From Bacteroidia bacterium (GTDB taxonomy: Bacteria > Bacteroidota > Bacteroidia > Cytophagales > Cyclobacteriaceae): DNA of 64,000 bases. Of this stretch, positions 23,000 through 62,645 are shown in pieces. The DNA is taken from the NCBI GenBank assembly GCA_030426345.1, contig JAUHYU010000006.1:32690-96689 (forward strand). The letters run 5' to 3'. The first letter of the stretch is position 1. Every line of letters begins with the position of its first letter. Below the pieces are notes generated by a model that was given only the letters and a program-made list of their open reading frames with translations, was not told the DNA's origin and ran no database searches. The position numbers and the translations under genes are program-made.

Positions 23000-25645
23000 A
23001 TGAAATACAATTCCCGAAATAGTCTGGCTCAATGGCTCAATTTACGATTTGTCGCTTTTGTCGCGCTTGCCATTCTTTTTGCAAATGTAAAATCTGAAGC
23101 ACAAAAGGCCTATAAATCCATAGCGATCAGCACCGGGCAAGATGCCAATGATGTAGAATTAAAAATCGCCAATTTGCTCAAAGATCGTATGCTGGAGTTG
23201 GGGAATTTGTCAGTGAGGATAGAGCAAGCAACTACTTCAAACAGTGATAATGAACTACTTATTTACTTTGGTCGGCAAGACCATCACCATGGATTTGAGA
23301 GGCTTTTTGAAGCCAATCGCATTCCAAAGCTTACCGAGTTGGCACCAGGCCCTGAGGGATTCTTACTGCAGCAAATAAACAACAATAGTTTAATCGCTGC
23401 GGGAATTGATGACCGGGGTTGCCTCTATGCAGTCGGGGAATTATTGAGACAAATATCCATAAGAAATGATTTATTGACCATGCCTGAAGGATTGAATATC
23501 CGTACTGCTCCAGCTTTTGAAATTCGTGGAACTCAGTACGGACAGAGTCATGTGGCTAAGCGTTTGGCCAAAGTTCGGGAATGGACAGATGAAGAAACGC
23601 AAAGGGTAATTCTGGATTATGCGCTTGCCGGGGCAAATGTCTTTAGCACCAATGCAGGGGAGATGTACGACTTTATCAAATCATACGGTTTGATGACACA
23701 GGGTAGGTTTGGAGCTAATACCGCACATGAAATCAAAAACCCGGAATGGTTGGGGTCAGAATCTATTGGCAGAAATGGCTACGTATGTCTCTCTGTGCCT
23801 GAGGCGCGTAGTTACATGTTGGAGAAAATTGAAAAATTTGTTCAAGAAAACCCTTCGTTTGATTATATAAAATTTCAAGGTGGTGATGGAGGTGGTTGTG
23901 AATGCGATCGATGCAAGCCTTATGGTCTGAAGTTTATCACCTTGGTAGAGCAAATGGCCAACATCATCCACAAGTATCATCCAGAGACCAAGATTTATTT
24001 TACAAATCAGAAATTTGACAATGCAGACGACAAGGCGATTTTTTCCTATTTGCAGGAAAAGCCGAGGGATTGGCTGTGGGCGTGGGGCTACGGCCCGGGC
24101 TCTGACGCCACTTCTTGGCAACCCGGGCACAGACAGACCCACCGCATGGATTTGTTCCGCTATCCCGGTTTTGGACCTTATGGATTATACCCCAAAGAGG
24201 TTTTACACCAATTGCCACCGCAGCAAAAACTGGTTTATTACAATGAAATAACCCATTGGAAATACGCCCAACACGCATACATCCAGATGTATCCGCGAGC
24301 TGACCGCAATGGCGATTTGCCGCCACATTGGAGTCACGATATCTATGAGCGACAACCGGATCAATACCTGACCATGGTATATAATCGCCTGACCTTTTTT
24401 GCATGGCCACGGCAATATTATCGGGTGTTTCAGGATTTGATGCCTTTTGGGGTTGGCGACATTACGCATTCTAGTGGGCATCATGACCACTTCAATCAGT
24501 GGATGTGGCAGCGATTGCTTTGGAATCCTCGCACTTCGGTAGAGGATGTCGTGGATGAGTATTGCGAGGTATGGTTTGGAGTGGAGGCCGCGCCAGAAAT
24601 GGCGGAAGCTATTTTTCAATTGGAAGAAAATATAGAAGAAATACCGGGAAACCCATTGCCGGAAAAGGCGGGCATCGTCAACTATTATAACCTAGTGAAG
24701 AAAGCAGGCGATAAAATACCTTCAAAATCCATAGAAAATAACTGGCTCTGGAGTATGTACATGCAAAAAGGGGCCTTGGATCGCTACGTGCAGCTTTGCG
24801 CTCAACAACAAATTGAGCGAGAAAAGGCCACAAAATCCATGGTTGAGGATATTATGAAAAATAAACTGAGCAAAGAGCAGATTGAAAATGCGATTGAATT
24901 TGCTGAAAAGGAATTGGTGGAAACCGAAGAAATGAAAGCGCTGCGAGAAGAAGCCGGGAAATTGGGAGAGGAGAGCAACGAACTTTTTGGCGTGCGTAAC
25001 GATGGTTATTTCAATCTGGAACATGACTTTCTTGGTTTTGGTTGGACGATCCGCCAATTGAAGCGCGCGCTGGATGCTCCAAAGAAAGAACGTGCAGATT
25101 TGCTGGCCATGATTGTCGATTATGAAAATCCTGGAGAAGGTGGGTTTTATGATAATCTCGGCACGGCGAATCCTGCGCCAAATGTTGTTGTTGGATATCC
25201 CTACGATCATGGACAACCTTATGTAGACGACATGCTTTCAGAGGGAAATCGTCCCAGCCAGCGATCGATGCACTTTACCCAAGATGAAACTCAGGGAGTT
25301 ACGTTGCAGTATCGTGATCTTGACCCCAATGCTACTTATCGGATCAGGTTTACATTGGTGCGTCCATGGTACCAGGATCGCTATGCCATGCGGATGAACC
25401 AGAAGTCAGAGACTATTTATGCAGATGATGTGCTATTGGTGGATGATCTTCAGTTGCCTTTGCAGATGAGTGATCAATTTACATTTGATATTCCTAAGCA
25501 AACTACTGTGGATGGTAAATTAGAAATTCGATTTCAAAAGGCGGCTGATGTAGCTGCAGGAGATCGGGTTTCAGTGGAGCAATGGCGCAATTCAGGTGGA
25601 TGGGGAACCATAGTATCTGAGGCTTGGTTGATAAAGAAAAAATAA
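23000..25645 (+). CDS. Secreted glycoside-hydrolase-like protein (alpha-glucuronidase-type N-terminal domain, DUF4838-like Cys motif)
   Basis: RGCLYAVGELLRQ; GGGCECDRCKPYGLKFITLVEQMANIIHKYHPETKIYF; C-terminal beta-domain IRFQKAADVAAGDRVSVEQWRNSGGWGTIVSEAWLIKKK. Confidence 0.6.
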   Translation: MKYNSRNSLAQWLNLRFVAFVALAILFANVKSEAQKAYKSIAISTGQDANDVELKIANLLKDRMLELGNLSVRIEQATTSNSDNELLIYFGRQDHHHGFERLFEANRIPKLTELAPGPEGFLLQQINNNSLIAAGIDDRGCLYAVGELLRQISIRNDLLTMPEGLNIRTAPAFEIRGTQYGQSHVAKRLAKVREWTDEETQRVILDYALAGANVFSTNAGEMYDFIKSYGLMTQGRFGANTAHEIKNPEWLGSESIGRNGYVCLSVPEARSYMLEKIEKFVQENPSFDYIKFQGGDGGGCECDRCKPYGLKFITLVEQMANIIHKYHPETKIYFTNQKFDNADDKAIFSYLQEKPRDWLWAWGYGPGSDATSWQPGHRQTHRMDLFRYPGFGPYGLYPKEVLHQLPPQQKLVYYNEITHWKYAQHAYIQMYPRADRNGDLPPHWSHDIYERQPDQYLTMVYNRLTFFAWPRQYYRVFQDLMPFGVGDITHSSGHHDHFNQWMWQRLLWNPRTSVEDVVDEYCEVWFGVEAAPEMAEAIFQLEENIEEIPGNPLPEKAGIVNYYNLVKKAGDKIPSKSIENNWLWSMYMQKGALDRYVQLCAQQQIEREKATKSMVEDIMKNKLSKEQIENAIEFAEKELVETEEMKALREEAGKLGEESNELFGVRNDGYFNLEHDFLGFGWTIRQLKRALDAPKKERADLLAMIVDYENPGEGGFYDNLGTANPAPNVVVGYPYDHGQPYVDDMLSEGNRPSQRSMHFTQDETQGVTLQYRDLDPNATYRIRFTLVRPWYQDRYAMRMNQKSETIYADDVLLVDDLQLPLQMSDQFTFDIPKQTTVDGKLEIRFQKAADVAAGDRVSVEQWRNSGGWGTIVSEAWLIKKK
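23288..23309 (+). repeat. Dispersed CATGGATTTT motif copy (inside CDS)
   Basis: catggatttgagaggctttttg. Confidence 0.8.
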
Positions 25646-25747
25646 TAACCAGAACTTTAATACGAGGCAGGCCAGTAAATACCAAAATGGATAAAAGGAA
25701 TAAAATAACTCATCCACTCCATAACTGAAATATATCCTTTTATTATC

Positions 25748-25776
25748 TGTCCCATTAATTATCTATTTTCGGGACA
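25748..25776. promoter_or_regulatory. Candidate AbiEi operator 1
   Basis: TGTCCC-N17-GGGACA. Confidence 0.65.
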
Positions 25777-25801
25777 AAATATCCTAGAAACAAACTTGAT
25801 T

Positions 25802-25830
25802 TGTCCCATATTTTTAACATTTTTGGGACA
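25802..25830. promoter_or_regulatory. Candidate AbiEi operator 2, abutting the start codon
   Basis: TGTCCC-N17-GGGACA followed directly by ATG at 25831. Confidence 0.65.
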
Positions 25831-26412
25831 ATGTTAAATTTAGAGACTATAAAAAACAAATTCAATAATGGAGATATATTCTTTATCTCTGACTTTACTG
25901 AATTAGGAGCTTATGAAGCAATAAGGAAGTCACTACAACGGCTAACTACTGAAGAAGAAATTAGCAGAATAGCCAAGGGCATTTACTTCTTACCCAAAAA
26001 GAATGAAAGACTTGGCATCATGTTTCCTCATGCAGAACAAATAGCTGAAGCAATTGCAAAACGAGATAAAGCTCGAATAATCCCTACGGGAATAACGGCT
26101 CTCAACAAATTAGGACTTTCTGCTCAAATCCCGTTAAAAGCTGTTTATTTAACAGATGGCTCTGCTCGTCAAATTGAGGTGGGCAACCAAACAATTCAGT
26201 TCAAAAAAACAAACCCCAAAAACCTCAGTATTGATCACCAACTAAGTAATTTGATTATACAAGCTCTCAAAGCAATTGGAGAGAAAAACGTAACAGGGGA
26301 ACAGGTTCAAAAGATTCAAAAGATTATTTACCAAAGTCAAGAACAAGAGTTAATCTTTAAAAATTTAAGAAATGCCCCTGTTTGGATTCAAAAAATTATA
26401 ATAACAAGATGA
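25831..26412 (+). CDS. AbiEi-type antitoxin / DUF6088-like transcriptional regulator (type IV TA)
   Basis: GDIFFISDFTELGAYEAIRKSLQRLTTEEEISRIAKGIYFLPK; ATG at 25831 preferred over TTG at 25801. Confidence 0.8.
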   Translation: MLNLETIKNKFNNGDIFFISDFTELGAYEAIRKSLQRLTTEEEISRIAKGIYFLPKKNERLGIMFPHAEQIAEAIAKRDKARIIPTGITALNKLGLSAQIPLKAVYLTDGSARQIEVGNQTIQFKKTNPKNLSIDHQLSNLIIQALKAIGEKNVTGEQVQKIQKIIYQSQEQELIFKNLRNAPVWIQKIIITR

Positions 26413-27398
26413 ATAACTGGCTAACTTTATCGAAAGAAGATCAAGTTGAGTTATTCACTCAAGTCGGGGTTCGTTTAAACCTCCCTCCACAAGCCGTTGA
26501 AAAAGATGCCTGGGTTACACTCATGCTTCGAATGATTTTTAACTCTAAGCTGGCTAAACAGTTTATCTTCAAAGGAGGAACATCATTAAGTAAAGCCTTC
26601 AATCTCATTCAAAGATTCTCAGAAGACATTGACCTTGGAATAGACCGTTCGTATTTAGGGCTAAAAGGTAAATTAACCAAAGGAGAAATCAGAAAGCTCA
26701 GAAGGGCTTGTCATACGTTTGTATCAGAAGAATTAACTTCAATTCTCTCAAATGAACTTGAAAATTATGGGGTTGATGGGCGCATATATGACATACTTGT
26801 AGAAAACGAAAAGATTTCCGATCAGGATCCTGAAACGATTCAGGTGAACTACCAATCTGTTTTCGAGGAAGTTTTTTACTTACCAACAAGAGTCCTGATA
26901 GAAGTAAGTGCAAGATCGTTGCGAGAACCTTACAAAGAATTAAAAATCAATTCTCTTATTGATCAACAATATCCAGAAATGGATTTCTCAGAAACTCCGT
27001 TCGAAGTTCAAGTGACTAATCCACAAAAAACTTTCTTAGAAAAACTGATTCTGCTACACGAAGAATTTCAGAAGCCGGCAGAAAAAATTAGACACCTAAG
27101 AATGTCTCGTCATTTTTATGACATTGGAAAAATACTCGATTCTGAATTTGGAAAAGATGCTTTACAAGATACAAGACTTTTCAAAAACATAATCGAACAC
27201 AGAAAGGTATTAACTCCTGTAAAAACTACGGATTATAATTCATTGAGTTTGAAAGCACTCAATATAACTCCTCCTGATAAGCAAATGAAAAACTTCCAGA
27301 CGGATTACAGCGAAATGCAAAAAAATATGATTCAGGGAAGCTCGGAAGAATTTGATGTATTGCTAGATAAAATCATTAACTACTTAAGAGAAGCATAA
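26409..27398 (+). CDS. AbiEii/AbiGii-family nucleotidyltransferase toxin
   Basis: FIFKGGTSLSKAFNLIQRFSEDIDLGIDR (nucleotidyltransferase GGTSLSK...DIDL motif); ATGA overlap with antitoxin stop. Confidence 0.9.
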   Translation: MNNWLTLSKEDQVELFTQVGVRLNLPPQAVEKDAWVTLMLRMIFNSKLAKQFIFKGGTSLSKAFNLIQRFSEDIDLGIDRSYLGLKGKLTKGEIRKLRRACHTFVSEELTSILSNELENYGVDGRIYDILVENEKISDQDPETIQVNYQSVFEEVFYLPTRVLIEVSARSLREPYKELKINSLIDQQYPEMDFSETPFEVQVTNPQKTFLEKLILLHEEFQKPAEKIRHLRMSRHFYDIGKILDSEFGKDALQDTRLFKNIIEHRKVLTPVKTTDYNSLSLKALNITPPDKQMKNFQTDYSEMQKNMIQGSSEEFDVLLDKIINYLREA

Positions 27399-27444
27399 AA
27401 TATTATGGCACCTTCAATAGGACCAAATATTACAGGTTTAGCTA

Positions 27445-27555
27445 AGGGGAACGATTGTATCTGAGGCTTGGCTGATGAAGAAAAAATAATAGCCAGGGCT
27501 TTAACACGAGGCAGACCAGTAAATACCAAAATGGATAAAAGGAACAAAAAAACTC
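27445..27555 (+). pseudogene. Orphan copy of the 3' end (TIVSEAWLMKKK*) plus downstream sequence of gene 23000-25645
   Basis: Ungapped alignment to 25601-25711, about 85-90% identical by eye. Confidence 0.92.
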
Positions 27556-27676
27556 CACCCTCTACGGGGATATTGCCATTTTTGGCTAATTTCAAAGCAA
27601 ATGTATAAGCCATATGGTAGATAAAGGGCATGTAGAGCGCTACATATGTTAGTTGGGCACCATATAAAACGAAAAA

Positions 27677-28966
27677 ATGAACTATATAGATTACGTAAAA
27701 ATTGATGGGTTTTGGGGAGACAAAACTGTGGAAATTGATTTTGATAAGGATATTAATTTCATTATCGGTGTCAATGGTTCGGGTAAAACGACCTTCATCA
27801 ACTTAGTTGTTGCAACTCTTATGCTTGACTTCCCTGTTCTTGACAGAATTCAGTATGACAAAGTTCACGTCCGACTAAGAAGTTTTCATAATAACAAATT
27901 CAAGCCTTTTATTGAAATAGAAAAAAAGAAGTCCGACTTAACTCCATATCCGCAAATTGTTTTCAGAATAAAAACTTCTTCTAAGGAAAAAATTAAAGAA
28001 TACCCTCTTAATGAAATTGAAGAAGAAAACCTATTCAGATATCGTTCCGAATTCGCTCATCAGAGACTGATGGGTAGAAGAAGACGAGAATATGATGAGG
28101 ACATTTACGAACAAATAAAATCTTTGATAAACATAAACTGGCTCTCAATTCATAGAGTTAGTAACAGAAACTCCAGAGAAGAGAATAATGAGTCATCTGT
28201 TGACCAAAAAATCAAAGAATTGAACAATTCTTTTTTAAGATATTTTTCAGTACTTCAACGTCAAGCAGCTTCAGAAACTGAATCATTCCAAAGATTTATT
28301 TTCTTGTCGCTTCTGGCTGACGAATCTCAAGAAGAACTGTTTAAAGTATTAAATACAATCAAATCTTCCGATGAACAAAGGTATTTAAAAGACATCTTTT
28401 CAGAATTCAAATTACCTGAAAGATCTTATGCCAAAAAGCTTGACAAACACTTTGAATCATATGATAAATCGATTAACAAGTTTAAATTAAAGGAACGCCT
28501 TGATGTAAATGATTTGTCCTTTTTAATTGGAACAAGAAGAATTCATGGTGTCGTCCAGAAATGGAGTGAACTTATTTCAAAACAAAAGGAGATTTTCAAG
28601 TATAGAGATACTTTTCTTGAAGTAGTAAATGGATTATTACAACGCAAGAAGCTGATCTTTTCTGAAAGAAATGAACTCCTTATTGAGACCGAGAGTGGGA
28701 AAAAATTCCCACTTCAGCATCTGTCCTCAGGCGAAAAACAATTAATTATTATCCTGGGCGAAAGTCTCTTACAACAATCGACTCCCCATGTATATATTGC
28801 AGATGAACCAGAACTATCACTTCACGTAGCATGGCAAGAAAAGCTTGTAAGTAGTTTAAAGGCAATAAACCCGAATTCACAAATTGTATTCGCAACACAT
28901 TCACCCGATATCGTTAGTAGTTACGCAAATTCCGTTATAAAAATTGAAAATCATATAACGGCATGA
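27677..28966 (+). CDS. AAA ATPase, PARIS AriA-like defence protein
   Basis: Walker A GVNGSGKTTFINLV; LSSGEKQLIIILGESLLQQ; Walker B VYIADEPELSLH; FATHSPDIVSSY; overlaps the downstream gene. Confidence 0.7.
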   Translation: MNYIDYVKIDGFWGDKTVEIDFDKDINFIIGVNGSGKTTFINLVVATLMLDFPVLDRIQYDKVHVRLRSFHNNKFKPFIEIEKKKSDLTPYPQIVFRIKTSSKEKIKEYPLNEIEEENLFRYRSEFAHQRLMGRRRREYDEDIYEQIKSLININWLSIHRVSNRNSREENNESSVDQKIKELNNSFLRYFSVLQRQAASETESFQRFIFLSLLADESQEELFKVLNTIKSSDEQRYLKDIFSEFKLPERSYAKKLDKHFESYDKSINKFKLKERLDVNDLSFLIGTRRIHGVVQKWSELISKQKEIFKYRDTFLEVVNGLLQRKKLIFSERNELLIETESGKKFPLQHLSSGEKQLIIILGESLLQQSTPHVYIADEPELSLHVAWQEKLVSSLKAINPNSQIVFATHSPDIVSSYANSVIKIENHITA

Positions 28967-29841
28967 GCTTTACAAGAACATCAAACGGGCTAGCCAATCA
29001 ATGCCTATTTTACAATGTAGATGCTGTGGTTTTCACAGAAGGTGGAAATATGAGTTGGTCAATCGAGGACATTTATTCCAAGGAATACAACGAAAAAGCT
29101 ATTGACATAATTTTTTGGCGGAAATTATTCAATAGGTTCACTAACGACCTAAATCTGAAATTTAAGGCGGTGGGTTCTAAAACCACTGTAAATGCTATTG
29201 CTCTTGAAATTGAGAGTCATCAAATTACCACGGTGATCGCAGCTATGGATTCAGAGTTTGATGAATTGTATAACAAGAAAATCAATAACCCGAATGTTCT
29301 TTATACAAGAGGATATAGCTGGGAAAATGATGTATGGAATGCCGACATCACAGTTTCAATCCTTGAAGATTTGTCAGGTGAGCAGGTTGACAAAAAAATA
29401 GTCAATGACAGTATCGAACAATTTCACTCAGAAATCGTTGAAGGTGTTTATGCTGATGCAATGCTATTTGGCACTGACTCATCATTCCTACCTAGAAAAG
29501 GGCATCTTAAGTGCGTTGATTGTTCTCTCGACACAGCACCTAGAATTAAATCTGATTTTATAGAAAACCTTTTGACAACAGCTGGAGTGTCACGGAGTTT
29601 AATTAAATCCTTTGGAAAGTACAATAAAATAAATAGCCCACAACATTGTTATGGTCATTTGCTTAACGATTTCTACTTTCATTTAGTAAGATATATATCT
29701 AATTCAATACTGAAAATTAAAGTCATTAATAAAGACCTATTAGAGAATTTGGCCATTTCCAAATTTAATCAATTGATGCCTAGTGAAATACAGGACTATT
29801 ATGAAATACTAGTAAAAAATACGGTGCCCAACAAGCGCTAA
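28963..29841 (+). CDS. DUF4435-like (TOPRIM-type) protein, PARIS AriB-like effector
   Basis: VVFTEGG...FWRKLFNRF...GSKTTVNA...AAMDSEFDEL...YTRGYSWENDVW; ATGA overlap with the upstream ATPase. Confidence 0.65.
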   Translation: MSFTRTSNGLANQCLFYNVDAVVFTEGGNMSWSIEDIYSKEYNEKAIDIIFWRKLFNRFTNDLNLKFKAVGSKTTVNAIALEIESHQITTVIAAMDSEFDELYNKKINNPNVLYTRGYSWENDVWNADITVSILEDLSGEQVDKKIVNDSIEQFHSEIVEGVYADAMLFGTDSSFLPRKGHLKCVDCSLDTAPRIKSDFIENLLTTAGVSRSLIKSFGKYNKINSPQHCYGHLLNDFYFHLVRYISNSILKIKVINKDLLENLAISKFNQLMPSEIQDYYEILVKNTVPNKR

Positions 29842-29950
29842 GAAAACATGCACTTCGGGGCACGTTTCTTTGCGAAGGCCGTTTTGAGACATTTCTTAAG
29901 AATTTAAGATCGATTCAAAACAGATCCAACTTAATGGCTAATTGTTGGGT
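29826..29950 (+). other. attC-like cassette recombination site at the 3' end of the ATPase/DUF4435 pair
   Basis: R''-like GCCCAAC (29826-29832), R'-like GTTGGGT (29944-29950), nested pairing CCCAACAA/TTGTTGGG and TAAG/CTTA; the cassette start carries GTTGGGC (27652-27658), exact complement of R''. Confidence 0.5.
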
Positions 29951-29960
29951 TGGTTCCGCT

Positions 29961-30038
29961 ATTCGATTTCAAAAGGCCGCGGATGTGGCTACAGGTGATC
30001 ACGTGACCGTAGAGTATTGGCGCAATTCAGTTGGATGG
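29961..30038 (+). pseudogene. Orphan fragment (IRFQKAADVATGDHVTVEYWRNSVGW) homologous to the C-terminus of gene 23000-25645
   Basis: Ungapped alignment to 25526-25603, about 80% identical by eye. Confidence 0.9.
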
Positions 30039-30046
30039 ATTGAGAT

Positions 30047-30712
30047 TTACTCATCTATCTCCACATTGTTCCATTCTAAATGAAGATAAATTATTCCCTT
30101 TTTCACTTTTTCGTCCTTGAACTTTTCCTTATCTATTTTCGTGTCTTTGCCCATGAAATTCAACGGTATTTTTATTTTCTCTACTTCAAACTCGATGATG
30201 ACTTCACTTGGCAGCAGGGAATCAGAAGCATAACTCATTTTGATGGTATAAGACCCTTCGTTGCGCGTGGTGATTTCCGAGACAATGATCTGATTCAGCA
30301 CCGTGTCAATCTTCAATGTCATGATGGCAAAATCAGCTTTGTTGTCAGCAGGGATCGCATTGAGCACTTTTAGCATTTTCCCATTCACCAGCTCGGTGCC
30401 GCGATCAACCGTAAAAAAATCATATTTAAACAATTCGTTCCACGAAAAATCAAGTCCGCGCTTGGGTATAAAAATAAAATCTTCGGTGGTGTAGCTGATC
30501 GGTTTCCCTTTTTTAAAATGAAGGTCTGCATGCTTTACGGGCATGTTGATGAAGCTCACATGGAGCTCCAGCGTAGCCTTGGCATACGCTTCTTGCACAG
30601 ATTCCAGCTTTTCTTTGATGCGCAACAAATCCGGATCGATGCCCTGTCCATGAGCATAGGCAACGATTAAAAAACAGCATGTCATGGAAAAAAGTGCCTT
30701 CATCCTATGTCT
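30047..30712 (-). CDS. Secreted LolA-like/periplasmic protein of an ABC operon
   Basis: Probable start MKALFSMTCCFLIVAYAHGQ downstream of the track start; followed upstream by ABC genes. Confidence 0.5.
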   Translation of the reverse strand, partial: RHRMKALFSMTCCFLIVAYAHGQGIDPDLLRIKEKLESVQEAYAKATLELHVSFINMPVKHADLHFKKGKPISYTTEDFIFIPKRGLDFSWNELFKYDFFTVDRGTELVNGKMLKVLNAIPADNKADFAIMTLKIDTVLNQIIVSEITTRNEGSYTIKMSYASDSLLPSEVIIEFEVEKIKIPLNFMGKDTKIDKEKFKDEKVKKGIIYLHLEWNNVEIDE

Positions 30713-31524
30713 TTTTTTACAAATAAAAAGGTGCCAAAACCCATGAAAACCAGGGTGTAGCACAGCAACAAAATATGGTTGTGGTGCACAGCTGGCCAGG
30801 GAATTTCATAATGGAAAAAATATTGCCACGTGTCTACCAGTTTTGGCAGGAACCAGCTGTCCGCACTACCAAAATCAATTTTCAAAAGTAGGGTATTGAG
30901 AATGAGAAATAAAGCACATAAAATCCATGTGATGGTCATTTCCTTGAAAACCACTGCGATGGTGATGCTTGTGACGCTATAAAAAATCATGAGCAATGTA
31001 CCGGACATAAAAGCCATGCCGATCCTGCGGAATGCTTCATTCGATTCATAAAAGTTGAGGCCGTTGATATAAACAATCAGATCTCCCTGACCAAAAATAC
31101 CGTATGCCAACAGGGAGGCGCTGGCCATCAACAGCGAAAGAACGATCAGGGTAAAAATGATGGCGATGATGTATTTTGACAGGATATAATCCTGCTTTCT
31201 AACGGCTTGCAGCAATACTGTTTGCAGGGTTTTGTCTTTGTATTCATTGGTGACAAATCCCGAAACGATGATCATGATGATGAGCGGAAGGTTGAACCAA
31301 AGCGCATTCAATACAATGTAAAGCACGAGATGGCCATTGAGCAGGTTGCCTTCGAGGTAGAAGTTTTGCGATAGATTTTCCAGGATCATATCGATGATGT
31401 CATTTCCCTGAAACCACGCACCCGCCATGATAAAAAGCTCTATGATCAAGATAGCGGCCAGTCCATAATAGGTCCTTTTTTGCCTGAATACCATGTACAA
31501 TTCTGCCCGGATCAATGCGATCAT
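30700..31524 (-). CDS. ABC transporter permease
   Basis: Six hydrophobic segments, overlaps ATP-binding gene. Confidence 0.8.
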   Translation of the reverse strand: MIALIRAELYMVFRQKRTYYGLAAILIIELFIMAGAWFQGNDIIDMILENLSQNFYLEGNLLNGHLVLYIVLNALWFNLPLIIMIIVSGFVTNEYKDKTLQTVLLQAVRKQDYILSKYIIAIIFTLIVLSLLMASASLLAYGIFGQGDLIVYINGLNFYESNEAFRRIGMAFMSGTLLMIFYSVTSITIAVVFKEMTITWILCALFLILNTLLLKIDFGSADSWFLPKLVDTWQYFFHYEIPWPAVHHNHILLLCYTLVFMGFGTFLFVKKDIG

Positions 31525-37383: not shown

Positions 37384-37436
37384 AATTCCCTCTATCAATC
37401 TGATAATTCATCTAATCGATTGCTGTTATTTTTCCA
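37384..37436 (-). pseudogene. Orphan copy of the 3' end of metallophosphoesterase gene 39601-40545
   Basis: 37394-37436 aligns to 39604-39646 with about 5 mismatches (GKITAID...NYQID). Confidence 0.85.
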
Positions 37437-39600: not shown

Positions 39601-40545
39601 CTAATCAATCTGATAATTTGCCCAATCTATTGCTGTTATTTTTCCATTAATGACTTTTTCAAAGGCATATTCTTTGTCTTGGAGTTGGCGGTTATCTTTG
39701 TGGGTCATTTGATATTGTACCACCATTTTTGTCGGGTTTTTCAGCACGTGTACTTGTAGGAAACCGCTGACCAAGCTATTGCCAACTGCACCGGTATTGA
39801 AAGAAGCGGCTCCGGTATCCACACCCTTTCCCAGAAAATGATAGCGCTGAAACATGTGCGTAGTCGCCCCGAGAATCAGGTCGGCTTTGTTTATTAGTTT
39901 GGCTTTTCTTTTTGCGCTCAGTTGCTCCACCCACGGGCCATCATGCGCCAGTACCACGATAATATCCTCGTCTGTTTTGTCGATTCCATCCAACTTATCC
40001 ATGAGATATTGTCGGCTGCTTTCGTTGAATGCAAAATTTGGATCGTCCGGACTATCAGAATAGTGTAACTGAATGATGTGCACGGTGATCCCTTCATGGT
40101 TTTCGACGGCATAATATTCACATTTGTTATCCCTGATTTGCACGTTTTCTCTACTGGACAAATCAACAGAATCTAGGATGGGTGCACCTGCTCCCCAATC
40201 TCCCTGTCCATCTCCCCAGTATTCATTTTCGCCATCAGCAACATTTGGATAGAAGTGATTGTGCCATAGGGTATCATGCTTTATCAATTTCAGGAATGGA
40301 TTGAGCCTGTTCACTTTTACATGATCGCCCAAACCGAGAATAAACGCATCTCCACTTTCCCTGATCCACAGATCACATTTTTTCATGGCAGGATTTTCAA
40401 TGGAGTAGCCTTTATTGTCGCTCATGATGGAAAAGCTGAAAGCCGCCGCTTTGTCAAGGTCTTTGATAGTTATCTGCGCCCGGAGGTTCGTAAAACAAGA
40501 AAGGATGACAATAAATGGCAGAAGTAGGAGAGTCGTTTTTTTCAT
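39601..40545 (-). CDS. Secreted metallophosphoesterase-like protein
   Basis: FSFSIMSDNKGY...LGLGDHVK...VVLAHDGPW...LGATTHMFQ. Confidence 0.7.
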   Translation of the reverse strand: MKKTTLLLLPFIVILSCFTNLRAQITIKDLDKAAAFSFSIMSDNKGYSIENPAMKKCDLWIRESGDAFILGLGDHVKVNRLNPFLKLIKHDTLWHNHFYPNVADGENEYWGDGQGDWGAGAPILDSVDLSSRENVQIRDNKCEYYAVENHEGITVHIIQLHYSDSPDDPNFAFNESSRQYLMDKLDGIDKTDEDIIVVLAHDGPWVEQLSAKRKAKLINKADLILGATTHMFQRYHFLGKGVDTGAASFNTGAVGNSLVSGFLQVHVLKNPTKMVVQYQMTHKDNRQLQDKEYAFEKVINGKITAIDWANYQID

Positions 40546-60308: not shown

Positions 60309-61796
60309 CTACTTATAATAATCCTTTTTCACTTTCACTTCTTTGAGCAACGGGTCATCTATTTCCTTCATTTTTTGCAGGATATGCTGGTTTAAGTTTT
60401 CCTTTACCAGTCGTACTTCTTCTGTTGGTATATCGATCAGATTGATATTTTCTTCAGGGTCGAGGGCAATGTGGTACAACTCGTCACGCCCTGGGTTAAG
60501 AAAATCGCGGATTAGTTTCCACTCGGGAGTGCGGTAGCAACGCATAAATGCACTGCTATAATTGATCATGCTGTATTCTCCATAATAATCGTCATCCCAA
60601 TTTTCCACTTCCTTCCCTTGGAGTAAAGGAACCAGGCTTCTTCCGCGAATGGTATAATTTTCTGGCATTTTGGCCCCGGCCATTTCGACAATAGTAGGAA
60701 AGAGATCGAGGCTTGTAATCGTGTGATTGACGACCATGCCAGCCTTGGTAGTACCTGGCCAGATGACGAATGCAGGGACTTTGAGTGAAGTGTCGTACAT
60801 GTTGGGGCGTGATCGTGCTTCGATGTTTTCTGTGGCAGGCGGCAAGGTTTTGGTGATCCAGTTACCATTGCCTTTGTGCTCGATTCCATTATGCCCCATG
60901 TTGTAGCCATGGTCAGAAAAGAAAATAATGATGGTATTTTCCATCAATCCCAGTTCTTGCAAAAGGTCAGTGATGCGGCCGATATTGCGATCGACGCCTC
61001 GTGTACTTGCGAGATATTCACGCATTTTTCTCTTGGCCTTTTCTGTATCTAAATCAGGATATCCCGGATTGGGGAGAAGGGGATCCATATTTTCAAAAGG
61101 TGCCCAATCCTCGTCAGTAACAGGCAGCCATCGGGAATGTGGGGCGCGGGTGTTTAAGCACAAAAGGAAGTTCTTGTTTTTGTTGTCCTCAATGAATTTC
61201 AAAGCACGATCCGTCAGGATGTCTGTCGTCAATCCCTTGAACTGACTTACTTTCCCATTTTCTTCCAACTCAGGGTCGTCCGGAGTGGTGCCACCGCTTG
61301 TCAGTCCCGTGAAATAATCGAACCCGTTGTTGGTGGGATGGTATTTTTCGTTGCCCTCCATCGTCCAATCACCCAAATGCCACTTGCCCACCAAACCAGT
61401 ATAATATCCTGCTTCTTGTAGTACCTCGGCAAAAGTGATGCTTTCAGGTGCAAGGGCGGGACTGTATTTTGGGTCAAAAAGTCGATGGTTGGGGTGAGGG
61501 ATGAAGTCAAGAATATCATACTCGCTGGCATACCGACTGGTCATAATACTGGCCCGCGCCGGGCTGCAAACGGGCGTAGTGCAAAAAGCATTTTTTAAAT
61601 AAACCCCTTCTCTGAGCAGTTTGTCCATATTTGGGGTATTGGCATTGGGATCGCCAGAAGCCCCCAAAGCCCATGGCGCCTGATCGTCAGTAAGGATAAA
61701 AAGGATGTTCGGTTTTTTGTCTTGCGCTTGGAGTGAAAAGTTGGCAAACAGCAGCAGGACGCTAAATGCTTTAATTAAATTTGCTTTGAGATTCAT
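60309..61796 (-). CDS. Sulfatase (formylglycine-dependent, S1-type)
   Basis: KPNILFILTDDQAPWALG, CSPARASIMTSRYASEYD, GLVGKWHLGDW; likely start MNLKANLIKAF (61796) or MKKLLES (61817) rather than 61895. Confidence 0.93.
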   Translation of the reverse strand: MNLKANLIKAFSVLLLFANFSLQAQDKKPNILFILTDDQAPWALGASGDPNANTPNMDKLLREGVYLKNAFCTTPVCSPARASIMTSRYASEYDILDFIPHPNHRLFDPKYSPALAPESITFAEVLQEAGYYTGLVGKWHLGDWTMEGNEKYHPTNNGFDYFTGLTSGGTTPDDPELEENGKVSQFKGLTTDILTDRALKFIEDNKNKNFLLCLNTRAPHSRWLPVTDEDWAPFENMDPLLPNPGYPDLDTEKAKRKMREYLASTRGVDRNIGRITDLLQELGLMENTIIIFFSDHGYNMGHNGIEHKGNGNWITKTLPPATENIEARSRPNMYDTSLKVPAFVIWPGTTKAGMVVNHTITSLDLFPTIVEMAGAKMPENYTIRGRSLVPLLQGKEVENWDDDYYGEYSMINYSSAFMRCYRTPEWKLIRDFLNPGRDELYHIALDPEENINLIDIPTEEVRLVKENLNQHILQKMKEIDDPLLKEVKVKKDYYK

Positions 61797-61815
61797 GGAT
61801 TCTAGGAGCTTTTTC
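61794..61815 (+). repeat. Dispersed CATGGATTTT motif copy at the sulfatase start codon
   Basis: catggattctaggagctttttc. Confidence 0.8.
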
Positions 61816-61891
61816 ATAGTTCGTTTTGCGCTTAGGCACGGAAGTAACTTCCGCGCTAGTGGGGGCAAGCCTCCCGCGATTGTAGCTACCA

Positions 61892-62461
61892 TCAAATATC
61901 CTTGATAATCTGCAATAGCAAAAAAAGTCTCAATAAATCCCCTTCTACATTCATCATATCAATATTAATAAATAAGTGGTCAAGGTTAATATCAGATTCT
62001 CCACTTAAATATTTATTGAATTCTTTAATGGTCATTTTAAAATGGTCATTTCCTAAATCTAACATAACATTGTAATATGATTTAACCACTACTGCTATTA
62101 TATAAGGTTTAGCTAGTTCATGATAGTTTGGGATTTTTTCCAAATCTTCCTTATCAAATTTATCCTTCAAAGAATCATACTTCCTTAATAAATTTCGATA
62201 ACCTTCAGAATTTGCTTCTTGCATAATCCCTTTATTAATGAGCATTTCCTCTAGTTTGCCGAGTGAATTAAGAATTTGTGGATAGGACAACTCTGAGTGT
62301 GTATTTATAAAAAAGGCAACTCTCTCCTTAGCTTCCAATTCAATGGTCTTTTTATCTAGTAAATCAATTTTTTTTACCTCTTTTATCAATAAAAAATAGA
62401 GGCCGGTAATACTCAATATAAGAATGATAAAAAGACTCCTTTCTATAATTTTGTTTTTCAT
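61892..62461 (-). CDS. Hypothetical single-pass membrane protein
   Basis: 189-aa ORF, N-terminal TM SLFIILILSITGLYFLLI. Confidence 0.55.
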   Translation of the reverse strand: MKNKIIERSLFIILILSITGLYFLLIKEVKKIDLLDKKTIELEAKERVAFFINTHSELSYPQILNSLGKLEEMLINKGIMQEANSEGYRNLLRKYDSLKDKFDKEDLEKIPNYHELAKPYIIAVVVKSYYNVMLDLGNDHFKMTIKEFNKYLSGESDINLDHLFINIDMMNVEGDLLRLFLLLQIIKDI

Positions 62462-62596
62462 AACATTATTTACTTACCCCGTCACTGGTTGAGGTTACCT
62501 CCTTGTCAAATAAATTAATCAAAATGCCCCTAAAACCCATGAATTGGAAAATGAGGTTTCCCAATTGTGTTTGGCCATTTGTTTGTCGAATACGCT

Positions 62597-62645
62597 ACTT
62601 ATAATAATCTTTACTCACTTTCACTTCTTGGAGTAGCGGGGCAAT
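62597..62645 (-). pseudogene. Orphan copy of the sulfatase 3' end (IAPLLQEVKVSKDYYK*)
   Basis: Aligns to 60311-60359 (sulfatase DDPLLKEVKVKKDYYK*). Confidence 0.9.

Follow-up and report, generated by a model that had tools for sequence, protein, structure and literature searches.

How two fragments of one gene's 3′ end came to stand, in permuted order, on either side of a pair of defence genes is the question raised by a locus of a Bacteroidia bacterium (Cyclobacteriaceae). The locus lies in a 64,000-bp stretch of contig JAUHYU010000006.1 (the window), part of a metagenome assembly of 182 contigs and 5.1 Mb (GCA_030426345.1, or G000; relatives are coded G003, G004, G027, G031, G063, G068, G075, G487, G511, G557 and G583). 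Here an intact gene for a DUF4838 carbohydrate-active protein, the anchor gene, is followed by an AbiE pair, a partial copy of the gene's 3′ end (orphan 2), a PARIS-like pair and a further partial copy (orphan 3) (Table 1). A preliminary description of this DNA took the orphans for the halves of a single second copy carried on a circular molecule, which opened within that copy on integration. The evidence favours a different history, in which the anchor 3′ end has probably gathered defence modules by two processes, capture of a cassette and separate events that leave 3′-end scars.

The PARIS-like pair as an integron-type cassette
The gene for an AriA-type ATPase adjoins one for an AriB-like (DUF4435) protein, the arrangement of PARIS, and the best PDB matches of the former are AriA structures (8ux9, 8v45 and 8v46). 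Together with the PADLOC matches these bear out the PARIS-like pair that the preliminary description placed between the two orphans. If this segment was once circular, its closed junction should be an attC site, and the joined ends were therefore tested for one. On the left, G|TTGGGCACC closes the sequence 5′ of AriA; on the right, AriB passes at its end into GGTGCCCAACAAGCGC. These two ends are complementary along 12 bp, 1 mismatch included, a degree of pairing reached in 0/60 shuffles. When the left end (from 27653) is placed directly after the right end (29823-29881), the junction folds as a hairpin of 68 nt (-18.8 kcal/mol, z about -4.3). None of 300 random left ends equalled this, and the right end in its present context does not fold (z -0.5). 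The R''/R' complementarity and single-strand hairpin of an integron cassette are thus both recovered from the joined ends, and both junctions divide a GTT core after its G (G|TTGGGC on the left, G|TTTTGA on the right). From these features, the assignment of the AriA/AriB pair to an integron-type cassette, circular before its insertion, is well supported. The circle would have opened at 27652/27653 and 29881/29882, that is at attC, and both gene fragments therefore lie outside the cassette. The circular intermediate of the preliminary description gains support for the PARIS pair, but with its opening moved from the gene 3′ end to attC.

The joined-end test was also positive at seven further loci (z -2.2 to -6.0), six of them behind the same attI-like element described below. 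These include a rhomboid gene on contig C57 (z -5.1) and a locus on C53 (z -2.2) of the source genome, a ParDE-like pair in the congener G004 (z -4.8), loci of G557 and G487, which represent two further genera (z -3.5 to -6.0), and one in G068 behind a related recombinase (z -5.3). At each of the six loci other than that on C57, 0 of 200 random left ends did as well as the real one. A second copy of the R'' motif is found 3′ of the C57 rhomboid gene; two hand-shortened versions of the C57 site were excluded from the evidence. Among 395 genomes of the class, an AriA search at E<=1e-60 returned one match, the source's own; viral contigs held no close relative, and two plasmids only distant AriA proteins. 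A right attC boundary at 29949 (124 nt) was considered and replaced by the junction at 29881, and a known RNA family as the identity of sequence at the locus was not borne out.

A dispersed attI-like site and a recombinase in relatives
The cassette is preceded by a dispersed repeat, of which model R1 finds a single match in the window. A profile built from five copies detects at least 13 strong copies in the source genome and three in its congener; others occur across two more genera, in G487, G511, G557 and G583, but only 6 of 347 family genomes carry the element at E<=1e-4. Its sequence is conserved and its fold is not, the typical end being a TTGTT core; the element was rejected as an attC because it does not fold. 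In the source genome most copies lie 3′ of a host gene that reads in the same direction, and accessory genes come next, among them PARIS, a Shedu SduA homologue (4.2e-96), a convergent PDC-M33 candidate defence operon, toxin-antitoxin-like genes, DUF4238 and others. Most copies in this genome lack paired cassette ends, so that a cassette is not demonstrable at all of them. The leader pattern of the element was not found in viral contigs. The copies may have spread by recombination of blocks. On C57 (2051-4650), rhomboid and HNH-like genes lie 3′ of a ROK-family gene together with an attI-like leader and attC, and this leader is preceded by a short SSPLDRLADV and stop, like the C-terminus of the recombinase described next.

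In G557 a copy of the element directly follows the stop codon of a tyrosine recombinase of about 305 aa and stands at the head of an array of cassettes whose attC sites are classical. By this position the element is the probable attI of the G557 recombinase. Among PDB entries the protein is most similar to the integron integrase IntI4 (5.4e-41), with Xer-type recombinases close behind. The IntI catalytic residues (R-K-HxxR-H-Y) are complete in it and in related proteins of G063, G068 and G027, yet the spacing from Lys to HxxR is 62 residues in G557, as against 103 in the canonical IntI of the relative G031. The other three have 62-67 residues, and cassettes with paired ends lie behind each of them. 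None of these cassette-associated recombinases has the IntI additional domain, and the IntI4 alignment skips this region. Recombinases of this kind stand at L149 (G063), L148 (G027) and L151 (G068), each before cassettes with complementary ends. The apparent association of a recombinase lacking the IntI domain with cassettes is wider than the attI of the source genus.

Canonical IntI above the curated cut-off occurs in 1 of 59 relatives, with no attC array found beside it, and in the source genome none exceeds that cut-off. The complete set of integrase gene, adjacent attI and cassettes is absent from the source genome and present in G557 with the non-canonical recombinase. An integrase on contig C139 of the source has no adjoining leader and no paired cassette was found there; it is not shown to be cognate. 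The recombinase lacking the IntI domain may itself perform cassette capture. Other attI-like copies in G511 and G557 follow mere fragments of the recombinase 3′ end. At L279, L281, L282 and L284 in these two genomes such orphan ends vary in length, some contain stop codons, and each is followed by the attI-like element, the same anatomy of gene 3′ end plus landing site that the window presents.

Gene-end fragments in the window
Orphan 2 is identical to 25602-25711 at 99 of 110 bases and orphan 3 to 25526-25603 at 64 of 78. In a whole-genome BLAST search with the anchor 3′ end (orphan 2, E=8.6e-37; orphan 3, E=2.3e-15) only three places in the assembly matched, the intact gene and the two orphans, which excludes a chance origin. 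All copies are closest to the resident gene. The coordinates first given for orphan 3 hold; the match of orphan 2 is real, with its start refined from 27445 (25601 in the gene) to 27446 (25602). A single G-tract (GGAT|GGGG) holds both breakpoints, orphan 2 starting with GGGG and orphan 3 ending with GG. The reported meeting of the halves within 3 bp is thus confirmed as a 2-bp overlap, and so is their permuted order, the right half before the PARIS-like pair and the left half after it. The untranslated region (UTR) of orphan 2 continues into the dispersed attI-like repeat, a point absent from the preliminary description.

The two fragments differ in the kind of change they carry. Orphan 2 has three silent codon changes and one Ile to Met, Met being the commonest residue at that site, as if it had recently been part of a working gene. 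Orphan 3 carries Gly866 to Val at a site that is Gly in 73/73 orthologues, Gln861 to Tyr, a residue never found there among orthologues, and Arg856 to His. The more distal fragment is the more degenerate one.

The AbiE insert
An AbiE pair (25801-27398), also absent from the preliminary description, separates the intact anchor gene from orphan 2. It has the order of an AbiE type IV toxin-antitoxin system, an AbiEi regulator followed by an AbiEii nucleotidyltransferase. No attC was found in the insert (25712-27445), and AbiEii has no close relative among the viral contigs. Repeated GGGACAAA/TTTGTCCC boxes 5′ of AbiEi (25712-25800) resemble an autoregulation operator. Both the AbiE and the PARIS-like proteins presumably work as other members of their families do, and they may defend against phages here. 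In other Bacteroidia (L165 and L174) an attC-like sequence lies 3′ of AbiEii relatives, which suggests that AbiE, too, can travel as an integron cassette.

Scars at orthologous loci
Eighty orthologous loci of the anchor gene were searched for extra 3′ ends, which were present at three (L056, L076 and L085). At L056 and L076, both in Bacteroidia, a RelBE-type pair lies 3′ of the gene and is followed by a 129-133-bp copy of the gene 3′ end that ends at the stop codon. At L085 (Bryobacterales) a gene for a 321-aa hydrolase-like protein precedes a decayed copy of 208 bp. In six relatives of L056 and L076 the gene directly adjoins the neighbour that in those two lies past the copy, so these relatives show empty sites. 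L056 and L076 differ clearly in their flanking gene ends yet have a nearly identical RelBE block, a contrast that points to a recent transfer making use of this region.

Measured back from the stop codon, the left edges of the copies lie at 131, 124 and 204 bp at the orthologous loci and at about 44 and 120 bp in the window. No common cut site emerges from such different starts, and a site-specific cut in the anchor gene was rejected because the breakpoints vary between loci. The anatomy of the window and of all three orthologous loci is compatible with a homologous anchor on one side and a non-homologous junction at variable positions on the other. In Vibrio type VI secretion system (T6SS) arrays, sequential displacement leaving orphan 3′ ends has been proposed, by homology-facilitated illegitimate recombination (PMC5361080).

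Proposed history of the locus
Under the two-process history, the first is supported by the sequence itself: the AriA/AriB cassette, a circle at the time, was captured at the attI-like site 3′ of the anchor gene. Its enzyme may have been a tyrosine recombinase like the one that precedes attI in the relative, acting in trans or since lost. In the second process, DNA of a related genome would pair with the conserved anchor 3′ end and join illegitimately on the other side, by homology-facilitated illegitimate recombination or an equivalent single crossover, in two older or separate events. Each event would displace the previous 3′ end downstream. The AbiE event would have produced orphan 2, and an older event that brought the attI unit would have produced orphan 3, later truncated beside the neighbouring gene. 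The permuted order follows if each fragment survives from a different event; of the two, sequential displacement predicts the more recent origin for the one closer to the gene. The order in which the events took place is inferred, as the locus comes from a metagenome assembly and intermediates were not found.

Several observations weigh against this history. Meeting of the breakpoints within 2 bp is not predicted by it, and about 3-5% would be expected, by our own estimate, if they were independent. GC-rich microhomology in the G-tract might, as a conjecture, have helped them meet, and the coincidence stays partly unexplained. The divergence of the orphans by count (14/78 versus 11/110) is not significantly different (Fisher p=0.13). 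Neither an intermediate nor an empty site of the PARIS locus itself was found, and no recombinase stands beside any attI-like copy in the source assembly.

The shared G-tract remains an argument for the single copy of the preliminary description. There, an R'-attI-PARIS-L' circle with one contiguous foreign gene 3′ end, perhaps formed by recombination of flanking direct repeats, opens at the G-tract and, through microhomology or the action of some site-specific enzyme, enters the DNA between AbiE and the right-flank gene. The fragments do abut within 2 bp in permuted order, target and circle would have GG in common, and direct repeats around cargo exist at the orthologous loci. The boundary supported by the sequence is nevertheless attC and not the G-tract, the breakpoints differ at all other loci, and neither a target duplication nor an enzyme was found. 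Moreover, the fragments decayed differently, orphan 3 being altered at conserved residues and orphan 2 only silently or conservatively, and the orthologous loci lack the permutation. One second copy cut at one point is accordingly not established, and such a circle appears unlikely.

Less likely again is a tandem partial duplication of the host's own 3′ end, by replication slippage or unequal crossing-over, with AbiE and the PARIS cassette inserted later and independently while the copies decayed. Every copy is closest to the resident gene, as this would predict; the divergence of 10-18% and the silent or conservative changes of orphan 2 suggest instead evolution in a working gene, and the near-identical RelBE block between differing gene ends argues for transfer. 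An assembly of 182 contigs invites the suspicion that unrelated contigs were joined via short repeats. Such a chimera is very improbable, given that the repeats are short and only 82-90% identical, that the cassette ends match each other and that the same repeat occurs at many independent loci.

Relation to known systems
The PARIS segment resembles an integron gene cassette with defence cargo in its complementary ends that rebuild attC, its capture at G|TT and its attI-like head site. It differs in having no adjoining intI, in the many copies of its attI-like site that are scattered behind host genes, and in the recombinase, since the one next to this attI in a relative is without the IntI-specific domain. 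Insertions of integron cassettes at attG sites (Loot et al., 2024, cited in PMC11023631) similarly place cassettes outside integrons at ordinary chromosomal positions. The attG sites are described as divergent from classical att sites (PMC12901181); the landing site here is a conserved element of about 120 bp. In the "reverse" integrons of Spirochaetota the integrase is reported in reverse orientation (PMC9668308). The G557 recombinase gene likewise reads in the cassette direction, with attI at its own 3′ end, but the integrases there are IntI, and the G557 protein is some 40 residues short, with the IntI additional domain among what is missing.

Orphan 3′-end arrays of Vibrio T6SS/Rhs genes (PMC5361080) share the arrival of a new module beside a conserved gene and the displacement of older 3′ fragments downstream. 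Here, in contrast, the anchor is metabolic, the cargo comprises AbiE, RelBE and other modules, and an integron cassette is added. The pair itself has the PARIS order, an AriA-type ATPase and then a DUF4435 AriB, but is carried as an integron-type cassette and is distant in sequence from the solved AriA structures.

Integrons are described as unable to function without the IntI additional domain (PMC8138268), and in Bacteroidetes they are reported to be rare (PMC9024848). The loci described here might, tentatively, belong to an overlooked integron-type system of Bacteroidota, in which attC cassettes are captured by a tyrosine recombinase that lacks the IntI additional domain and whose own gene carries attI at the 3′ end, and in which attI has been scattered to at least a dozen sites behind host gene ends, giving many small defence-rich loci without a resident integrase. 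If so, a domain-lacking recombinase heading real attC arrays would be a direct test of integron requirements, and dispersed attI sites by PARIS, Shedu, PDC-M33 and toxin-antitoxin genes would be an overlooked route by which defence genes are collected and spread. The gene-3′-end scars at orthologous loci in different phyla also illustrate how a conserved gene can acquire, at its 3′ side, defence and toxin-antitoxin modules that bring no dedicated enzyme of their own.

Features of the locus and the wider window
Anchor gene orthologues occur in many phyla and are about 70% identical in relatives. Neither an integrase nor a transposase was found in the island cargo. Homologues of the right-flank gene (30047..30763) in G003 and G075 stop at about the same point.

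Table 1. Coordinates of features at the locus, numbered from the first base of the window.
Feature	Position	Strand	Evidence or remark
Anchor gene, DUF4838 carbohydrate-active protein	23000..25645	+	881 aa, 3′ end intact; Pfam DUF4838 1.2e-14
Left 3′-end segment of intact anchor gene	25526..25603	+	Counterpart of orphan 3
Right 3′-end segment of anchor gene: stop codon, UTR, first attI-like bases	25602..25711	+	Counterpart of orphan 2
AbiE insert between 110-bp direct repeats	25712..27445	+	
AbiEi / DUF6088	25801..26412	+	Pfam 1.9e-65; PADLOC AbiEi 2e-63
AbiEii nucleotidyltransferase toxin	26382..27398	+	Pfam 3.6e-37; PADLOC 7e-96
Orphan 2: second copy of anchor gene's last 44 bp, UTR, attI start	27446..27555	+	90% over 110 bp
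attI-like site ending G|TT, dispersed repeat	27534..27652	+	Model R1 match 27534-27657, 102 bits
Integron-type cassette with PARIS-like pair	27653..29881	+	Joined ends form attC hairpin; complementary ends
AriA-like ATPase	27677..28966	+	PADLOC AriA 1.2e-37; PDB AriA 8ux9 1.6e-16
AriB-like DUF4435 effector	28963..29841	+	PADLOC AriB 1.9e-11; DUF4435 3.8e-10
Cassette attC, right-end part (R'' GCCCAAC)	29823..29881	+	
Spacer, 79 bp	29882..29960	.	Read directly from sequence
Orphan 3: degenerate copy of 25526-25603	29961..30038	+	82% over 78 bp
Right flank: conserved gene, 3′ end complete	30047..30763	-	Stop codon 8 bp from orphan 3

Elsewhere in the window a 43-bp direct repeat, 88% identical, lies at 37394-37436 and 39604-39646. 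A second orphan 3′ end is found on the minus strand of 60309-62643, where 62595-62643 matches the final 49 bp of the sulfatase gene at 60309-61895 (86%); a 189-aa gene of unknown family lies between that gene and its orphan end, and a DUF1501 gene lies beyond.

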